Shown: positions 24,612 through 25,704 of the stretch, in pieces | Layout of the letters: each line of letters starts with the position of its first letter | How positions within the stretch are numbered: the first letter of the stretch is position 1 | Assembly (NCBI GenBank): GCA_028697255.1 | Contig: JAQVFM010000003.1 | Span: 1-61,278, forward strand | DNA: 61,278 nt | From: Oscillospiraceae bacterium | Lineage (GTDB): Bacteria > Bacillota > Clostridia > Oscillospirales > Acutalibacteraceae | Direction of reading: 5' to 3' | Notes under the pieces: model-generated | The model's database searches: none | What the model saw: the letters and a program-made list of their open reading frames with translations, nothing else | Told to the model about the DNA's origin: nothing | Position numbers and translations under genes: made by a program

Positions 24612-24639
24612 TTGCAAATTATTACAATACATGTATAAT
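24612..24639 (+). promoter_or_regulatory. Promoter of the LexA-box membrane protein gene
   Basis: TTGCAA (24612-24617) and TATAAT (24634-24639) are separated by 16 bp. The predicted start of transcription falls inside the first LexA box. Confidence 0.7.
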
Positions 24640-24645
24640 AGTAAT

Positions 24646-24672
24646 CGAACACTTGTTCGGAACGTTTGTTCA
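24646..24672 (+). promoter_or_regulatory. Tandem LexA (SOS) boxes
   Basis: CGAACACTTGTTCG (24646-24659) and GGAACGTTTGTTCA (24659-24672) each contain GAAC-N4-GTTC, the Gram-positive LexA/DinR core. They are adjacent and lie immediately downstream of a -10 box, an ideal position for repression. Confidence 0.8.
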
Positions 24673-24694
24673 TAGACGAAAAGGGGTATTCATT

Positions 24695-25027
24695 ATGTTG
24701 TTAAGCATTTTAAGCATTATTTTAATGAGCATCATGTCGTTATATATGATTAATAAAGCAAAGTTTGCAAGCACTCGCCGTATGGCGCTTATACCGCTGT
24801 GCTGCGTTTTTGTCGAGCTTATGACTGCGGGTCTTTTGTCTATATCTTCGTTTTGGGTGTTGACCTTAATACTGATAATATTGCGTGCCGTGATTTTAAT
24901 TAGCTGTATCGGTGAATTACAAAGAGATGCAGCAGCCGCCCGGCGCAGGGCACACCGCTGTGCTGTACATAAATACAGGGCTGCAACAGTATACGCAAAA
25001 GCCCACCAGCCAAAGCGCTGCGCTTAA
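24695..25027 (+). CDS. Small membrane protein of unknown function, predicted SOS-induced
   Basis: About 110 residues. I do not recognise the family. Three hydrophobic segments are visible (about 1-19, 29-49 and 52-72), followed by a short Arg/Ala/His-rich cytosolic-looking tail (AAAARRRAHRC, ending KRCA). The ATG at 24695 follows AAGGGG and excludes the ORF-track leader, which is coded by the LexA-box region. Two perfect-core LexA boxes overlap its promoter, so DNA-damage induction is likely. SOS-induced small membrane proteins in Gram-positives (for example YneA or SidA types) often block cell division. YneA has a LysM domain, which is absent here, so a similar role is only a hypothesis. Confidence 0.65.
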   Translation: MLLSILSIILMSIMSLYMINKAKFASTRRMALIPLCCVFVELMTAGLLSISSFWVLTLILIILRAVILISCIGELQRDAAAARRRAHRCAVHKYRAATVYAKAHQPKRCA

Positions 25028-25101: not shown

Positions 25102-25218
25102 TTTTTTATAGTTAGATTAGTAAGTTATAATAAATTTTCCTTTTGACTTTTAATTTGTTCATCTTTGTGGTAGAATACTGTAAAATCAACGGTTTACCGT
25201 GAACAGGAGATGAACGAT

Positions 25219-25704
25219 ATGAAAACTGAACATTTCACTGCAAAACGCCTGTTTGCAGCCTCTGCGCTGCGGAATATATTGATAATTTGTTTAATTGCTG
25301 TTACCGCCCTTTCAGGCTGTAAAAAAGATCAGGAAAATTCATCGCAAATTTCTACAACCACAACTACACAAACAACCTCCACACAAACCGCTGATTCAGA
25401 CACAACAATTTTAAATACGGACACAACCACTGTTACGGCAGCAACCGGTATTCCGCCTTATGGGTGGTGCAACGCCTCCACCATGCACATACGCAGTGGT
25501 CCCGGCACTGAATACGGAGCAATCGGGGGACTCAAAAAAGGCGAAAAGGTTACGATTGTAGACCGCGAGGGTGATTGGTTTAAGATTGAGTTTAAGGACG
25601 GCTTCGGATATGTCAGTGCGCTTTATATTCAAGACACCGAGGTTATGCCCGACGAAACCACTATGACAGCTGAAACTACTCCAGCCACCACTGTAGCTCA
25701 ATAA
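25219..25704 (+). CDS. Lipoprotein with bacterial SH3 domain
   Basis: A 161-residue secreted lipoprotein. Signal peptide with lipobox TALSGC, a Thr/Gln/Ser-rich linker of about 50 residues, a single SH3b domain (MHIRSGPGTEYGAIGGLKKGEKVTIVDREGDWFKIEFKDGFGYVSALYI), and a Thr-rich tail. SH3b domains usually bind cell-wall peptides. GGAG is too close to the first ATG (25210) and fits the ATG at 25219. It is followed by a strong terminator. Confidence 0.85.
   Translation: MKTEHFTAKRLFAASALRNILIICLIAVTALSGCKKDQENSSQISTTTTTQTTSTQTADSDTTILNTDTTTVTAATGIPPYGWCNASTMHIRSGPGTEYGAIGGLKKGEKVTIVDREGDWFKIEFKDGFGYVSALYIQDTEVMPDETTMTAETTPATTVAQ

Follow-up and report, generated by a model that had tools for sequence, protein, structure and literature searches.

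What does a small membrane protein of no recognised family do when its promoter carries two adjoining LexA boxes? We addressed this question at one locus of an Oscillospiraceae bacterium. The window (the whole stretch of DNA that was analysed, 61,278 nucleotides) is contig C72 of a 79-contig, 1.59-Mb draft assembly that is estimated to be 88.5% complete.

LexA boxes at the promoter and in homologous loci

The promoter region of the gene contains the following elements, given in window coordinates.

24612-24639, + strand: promoter TTGCAA-N16-TATAAT, read directly (TTGCAA 24612-24617, TATAAT 24634-24639)
24646-24659, strandless: LexA box 1, CGAACACTTGTTCG (14-mer), over the expected transcription start
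24659-24672, strandless: LexA box 2, GGAACGTTTGTTCA (14-mer), 13 bp past box 1
24680-24686, + strand: putative (inferred) ribosome-binding site AAAGGGG, 8 nt ahead of the ATG

An initial annotation, made from the letters of this DNA, had described two directly abutting GAAC-N4-GTTC sites that coincide with the transcription start of a TTGCAA-N16-TATAAT promoter, and direct reading found its coordinates to be correct. The two palindromes, GAACACTTGTTC (24647-24658) and GAACGTTTGTTC (24660-24671), follow each other in a 13-bp register, base 24659 is common to the two 14-mers, and the promoter scores 10/12 against the consensus in a consensus scan. A terminator-like call (24645-24660) corresponds to the LexA palindrome, and a search of Rfam for RNA features in the promoter gave no match. 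In the window the tandem pattern has a single occurrence, versus 0/100 shuffles. A lone GAACN4GTTC is not rare (0.64 expected in the window), and the decisive evidence for the boxes, as judged from sequence comparison, is their conservation and not the rarity of a single site.

Conservation was assessed in 30 clear homologous loci, 12 in the window's genus and 18 from 8 other genera. Every one of them (30/30) has a RAACN4GTTY box at most 250 bp upstream of the start, versus 1.5% of shuffled upstream regions. Nearly all homologues have the 16-nt-spacer promoter in the equivalent position, and in most of the clear ones the box starts 2-18 nt past its -10 element, which places the box on the transcription start. 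The tandem pair is present in 16/30: every one of the 12 genus members has it, as do 4 of the other loci. Homologues devoid of LexA boxes had been named at the outset as the observation that would speak against SOS control; with all 30 boxed, the proposed LexA/SOS control is strongly supported, and we regard LexA control of the gene as near certain.

Tandem boxes located anywhere were present in 17/300 family genomes, at the membrane-protein gene in 8 and at dinB in 2; in the others they fell mostly in the interior of coding sequences, in hairpins or at unrelated places. Tandem 13-bp LexA boxes stand ahead of dinB-like polymerase genes at two loci (L162 and L163, genomes G165 and G317) of one other genus of the family. 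At locus L111 (about 146-172; genome G284), a perfect CGAACATATGTTCG followed by GGAACAC lies about 1.3 kb upstream of lexA, before a gene start.

Many relatives carry a further LexA-like site, which is absent from the window's own promoter. This site, with at most one mismatch from GAACN4GTTC, lies upstream of the -35 element in 19 homologous loci from 7 genera (L005, L006, L009-L012, L014, L037, L039-L042, L044-L047, L052-L054). Genus members mostly have a perfect box whose centre varies (e.g. GAACCGATGTTC), and elsewhere the usual form is CGAACAAATTTTCG or CGAACATTTTTTCG, read in either orientation. The motif GAACAWWTTTTC occurs 24 times in loci of the membrane-protein gene, some of which overlap each other, versus 0 times in 277 kb of other fetched sequence. 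Relative to the -35, the extra site starts at -21/-22, -30 to -32 or -42, in steps of one turn, and its helical phase with the -35 gives a Rayleigh R of 0.955 at 10.5 bp (n = 22). The nominal p of 2e-9 is too low, as the sites share ancestry, and it is safer to rest on the agreement of phase among 7 genera. No phase was found relative to the downstream box, and phasing with the promoter, not with the other operator, suggests a contact with RNA polymerase.

The gene, its relatives and its product

The gene and the features of its product are as follows.

24695-25027, + strand: gene for a 110-aa three-helix membrane protein, stop included (ATG at 24695; homologues, dN/dS)
24698-24754, + strand: membrane helix 1, aa 2-20, N-terminus predicted outside (hydropathy and charge in 38 members; AlphaFold2 helix 2-21)
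24788-24838, + strand: membrane helix 2, aa about 32-48, after the basic, predicted cytoplasmic loop KAKFASTRRM (hydropathy, charge, AlphaFold2)
24854-24913, + strand: membrane helix 3, aa about 54-73, predicted to run on as a long cytoplasmic helix to aa 103 (AlphaFold2 H54-103)
24920-25024, + strand: Arg/Ala-rich tail, predicted cytoplasmic, net charge +4 to +14 in 38/38 members (gaps in alignment A3)
25013-25024, + strand: C-terminal KRCA, putative C-degron (terminal Ala in 38/38 homologues, penultimate Cys in 24/38)

That this is a real gene for a protein of about 110 residues, as first annotated, is borne out by its relatives. When 60 related genomes were searched with the protein, a homologue turned up in 11/11 other genus genomes (E < 1e-19), and the closest pair, the window and L004, has a dN of 0.059 and a dS of 0.375 (ratio 0.16). 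The conserved ATG is the start of homology, and the reading frame is intact in all homologues. Close relatives are Ruminococcaceae bacterium UBA5423, Clostridiales bacterium DTU033 and Candidatus Avimonas (Clostridia). A profile search of 300 family genomes gave 30 positives (about 10%, 22 of them strong) in 14/135 genera, which implies that most relatives manage without the gene or use something else; besides the window's genus, at least 8 genera of the family have homologues. In order- and class-wide searches, convincing matches were essentially confined to this one family of uncultured gut and digester bacteria. The one strong match outside it is in a genome of another family (G447, family f10; L085, G447:C158), where the copy is nearly identical to that of genome G304 (L058) and has the same promoter; a transfer or faulty binning may explain it. 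Profile-profile comparison also joined a distant clade (L055-L062) to the family (probability 96.7, E 3.9e-10), and its predicted layout is similar. In the distant clade (L055-L062, L085-L087, L090), GAACATATGAGC-like sites lie near the transcription start, without the full GAACN4GTTC palindrome, and most of the lexA genes fetched from it carry AAACATTTGTTT-type boxes.

The gene is chromosomal. In the genus it lies mostly opposite tex, with variable genes downstream (a DUF218 gene, an SH3 lipoprotein), and in the distant clade it lies near rpe/rsgA-like genes and a gene for a DUF348/G5/3D cell-wall protein. As neighbours differ between genera, context is uninformative on function, and a conserved operon or neighbour that would indicate function was rejected. 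In the window, the downstream gene (25210-25704, + strand) is SH3-domain lipoprotein-like (Pfam SH3_3, E 5.9e-15); this gene is also found in L063 and is not beside the membrane-protein gene in the other genus loci read. A mobile-element or holin origin was rejected as well, with no relatives in IMG/VR, phage or plasmid collections and no PHROG match.

The initial annotation had seen three membrane segments and an Arg/Ala-rich tail in a protein that it did not recognise and that was without the LysM domain of YneA, and each of these points holds. Hydropathy and AlphaFold2 agree on the segments and the tail, the conserved end of which is Arg-Cys-Ala. By sequence there was no significant match to a known family in Pfam, NCBIfam, PHROGs, PADLOC or PDB, a PDB fold search found no match, and neither LysM nor any other significant Pfam domain was detected in any of the 13 members searched. 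The best NCBIfam hit, the divisome protein SepX/GlpR, is insignificant (E 0.022) and was read as an effect of composition (helix plus Arg/Ala tail), and a viral fold match named holin (E 6.3, probability 0.06) is meaningless. On the evidence of these searches, the protein family is previously unclassified.

A common charge pattern in 38/38 aligned members (N-terminus nearly uncharged, loop 1 from +1 to +5, loop 2 from -1 to +1) places, by the positive-inside rule, the N-terminus outside and the tail inside, and a uniform N-out/C-in topology is predicted for the family. The AlphaFold2 model of the window protein has helices at 2-21, 25-30/32-45 and 54-103 with moderate confidence (pLDDT 78.5, pTM 0.52), and the charged cytoplasmic helix continues helix 3 unbroken in both structure models. 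Residues T27, R28, P34, L35 and E41 are invariant in the homologue alignment A1, D78 is also conserved, and C71 is at least 90% conserved in 38 members. Homologues are 110-139 aa long; their membrane part is conserved, while the tail is poorly so in sequence and in length (from short to more than 50 residues), save its end.

Only 1/52 other long window ORFs ends in Ala. The tmRNA gene, complete at the contig end (60931-61278, + strand), specifies the tag DNKTVAYAA, and the cleaved LexA N-fragment of this genome is predicted to end in GRVTA. The exposed C-terminal signals of the ssrA tag and of cleaved LexA are ClpXP substrates in other bacteria (PMC5742171). Given the terminal Ala in all homologues and these two parallels, a cytoplasmic C-degron is the most economical reading, and the C-terminus looks like a putative ClpXP-type degron. 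The likeness to the known ClpXP C-degrons lies in the exposed, Ala-ended C-terminus; unlike them, the putative signal here, -RCA, is built into an SOS membrane protein.

The SOS regulon and the proposed function

The SOS regulon of the genome was pieced together from pattern searches of the assembly, in which GAACN4GTTC has 11 matches, both window sites included, and the relaxed pattern RAACRNNYGTTY has 35. Promoter boxes were found at lexA (AAACATTTGTTT, contig C62), recA (GAACACAGGTTC, contig C31, from the GAACN4GTTC pattern) and dinB (GAACATATGTTC, contig C50), all in the window's genome (G000) and identified by their domains; the LexA protein itself (G000:C62) has LexA_DNA_bind and S24 peptidase domains. 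Across the family, lexA promoters bear RAACAWWYGTTT-type boxes of the same motif, which supports it as the local LexA site. Among the sites inspected in the pattern scans, no promoter-located box was seen beyond those of lexA, recA, dinB and the membrane-protein gene, which makes the latter one of four apparent SOS targets, to which others may be added, given that the reading covered part of the 35 relaxed sites in an incomplete assembly. The membrane-protein gene is the only apparent non-repair, non-regulatory SOS target found in this genome.

A small membrane protein that inhibits division is a common member of SOS regulons in Gram-positives (PMC6851548, PMC3998124). In this genome no small LysM protein of the YneA type was seen (all LysM frames of the assembly have at least 209 aa), nor was a yneA-like gene present among the neighbours of lexA. 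Because the gene is the only non-repair, non-regulatory SOS target found, and because no YneA-type protein was seen, we read its product as a LexA-repressed, short-lived membrane effector, for which division inhibitor is the leading candidate role, a proposal with about an even chance of being right. What sequence conservation shows is LexA-box control, selection on the protein, the topology pattern and the C-terminal motif; an architecture unlike that of described inhibitors and the many family genomes (most of them) without a detectable copy speak against division inhibition.

The proposed cascade would run as follows. In the undamaged cell, LexA dimers would lie side by side on the tandem box and, judging from the position and conservation of the sites, would shut the near-consensus promoter very tightly. 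Upon DNA damage, RecA would trigger LexA self-cleavage and the gene would fire as a single-gene unit. The product is predicted to enter the inner membrane with its N-terminus outside, three helices and the Arg-rich helical tail in the cytoplasm. Its membrane part would most likely bind a membrane component of the division machinery, e.g. the FtsW/FtsI/FtsL-DivIC septal synthesis complex, and septation would be halted while RecA and DinB handle the damage. Once LexA returns, the Ala-ended C-terminus could let a cytoplasmic AAA+ protease such as ClpXP clear the protein, and this quick removal would make the division block reversible. A tight operator together with a likely degron would give the on-off behaviour that a reversible checkpoint needs.

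A second possibility, which we consider rather unlikely, is an SOS-induced membrane regulator that does not block division, perhaps acting as adaptor or anchor of a partner in the cytoplasm and so altering the envelope, protease activity or chromosome position during repair. In such a role the Arg-rich helix could contact DNA, RNA or acidic lipids; strong charge is confined to this cytoplasmic helix, which is continuous with helix 3 in both models, and the cell-wall protein gene near the distant-clade homologues would also suit it. However, it is the membrane part that is conserved and the tail that, except for its end, is not, and the neighbours vary between genera. The very tight tandem operator, which a harmful product would call for, the small size, strong hydrophobicity and basic charge of the protein, and a putative terminal degron that would keep levels low could also be those of a TisB-like SOS membrane toxin, which would leave the membrane leaky or depolarised and lead badly damaged cells to dormancy or death. 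Yet a toxin of this kind is unlikely for a protein of 110-139 aa with conserved polar or structural residues in loops and helices (T27, R28, P34, E41, D78), which is under purifying selection and long retained in the chromosome across the whole genus, with no antisense RNA (Rfam empty) or antitoxin-like neighbour recognised and no phage or plasmid relatives. Chance palindromes before a spurious or decaying ORF, conceivable for a single site expected 0.64 times per window of this size, are refuted beyond reasonable doubt by conservation: boxes in 30/30, the same promoter geometry, a dN/dS of 0.16 and intact frames in all homologues.

A new DNA-damage checkpoint effector, as the initial annotation had suggested, is in our analysis the best remaining reading, with an effector activity that we infer. 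Tentatively, the gene may represent a non-homologous class of three-helix SOS checkpoint effectors with a built-in cytoplasmic C-degron, in one large uncultured Clostridia clade, where many promoters would use the distal LexA-like site, at whole turns from the -35, so that LexA not only blocks RNA polymerase but contacts or locks it from upstream. With the clade's very small apparent SOS regulon (lexA, recA, dinB and the membrane gene), one uncharacterised membrane protein would be the main non-repair output. The homologue set is simple and testable, with a promoter that has unusual helically phased operator sites.

Comparison with known SOS membrane proteins

Inhibitors of cell division under SOS control have arisen many times over with no similarity in sequence, and most of what is known of them comes from model organisms. 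Among SOS toxins, TisB of E. coli is a LexA-controlled, small hydrophobic membrane peptide with a single short helix and an RNA antitoxin. The new protein is similar to TisB (treated in PMC11575346) as a LexA-controlled small hydrophobic membrane product, and differs in its three helices and in having no recognised antitoxin.

We compared SidA, DidA, YneA and ChiZ by their architecture as published in the literature. Known Gram-positive SOS division inhibitors are small membrane proteins cleared by proteolysis (PMC6851548, PMC6051672, PMC13396833), and those of the YneA/SosA/ChiZ type have one membrane segment and an extracellular C-terminus and are often encoded beside lexA (PMC6851548). The new protein does not belong to this type, as it has three segments and a C-terminus predicted to be cytoplasmic, and its gene, on C72, is not linked to lexA, on C62; it also lacks the C-terminal LysM domain that marks the YneA/ChiZ family. 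YneA of Bacillus subtilis is likewise a small LexA-controlled membrane protein; it is cleared by proteolysis and blocks septal wall synthesis through FtsW (PMC13396833). However, YneA has a single helix, its LysM domain lies outside the cell and CtpA/DdcP degrade it, whereas the new family combines three helices with a cytoplasmic tail and lacks both LysM and a link to lexA. In Staphylococcus aureus, SosA is a small SOS-induced membrane protein without LysM, the C-terminus of which governs its turnover (PMC6851548), but it has 77 aa, one helix and an extracellular C-terminus, its gene adjoins lexA, and the searches made gave no sequence resemblance. SidA and DidA of Caulobacter crescentus are small damage-induced inner-membrane division inhibitors that act on FtsW/FtsN (PMC4211646); by published architecture they differ in being short and from another phylum, and DidA is not SOS-controlled. 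Nothing in YneA, SosA or SidA corresponds to the Arg-rich cytoplasmic tail.

By the features tested, the new protein is thus not of the YneA, SosA or ChiZ type, and by published architecture it stands apart from SidA and DidA; nevertheless, it probably works like YneA, SosA or SidA. If it blocks division, it would represent a new inhibitor architecture, with three helices and a cytoplasmic degron, in which the shut-off shifts from extracellular proteases to a cytoplasmic one.
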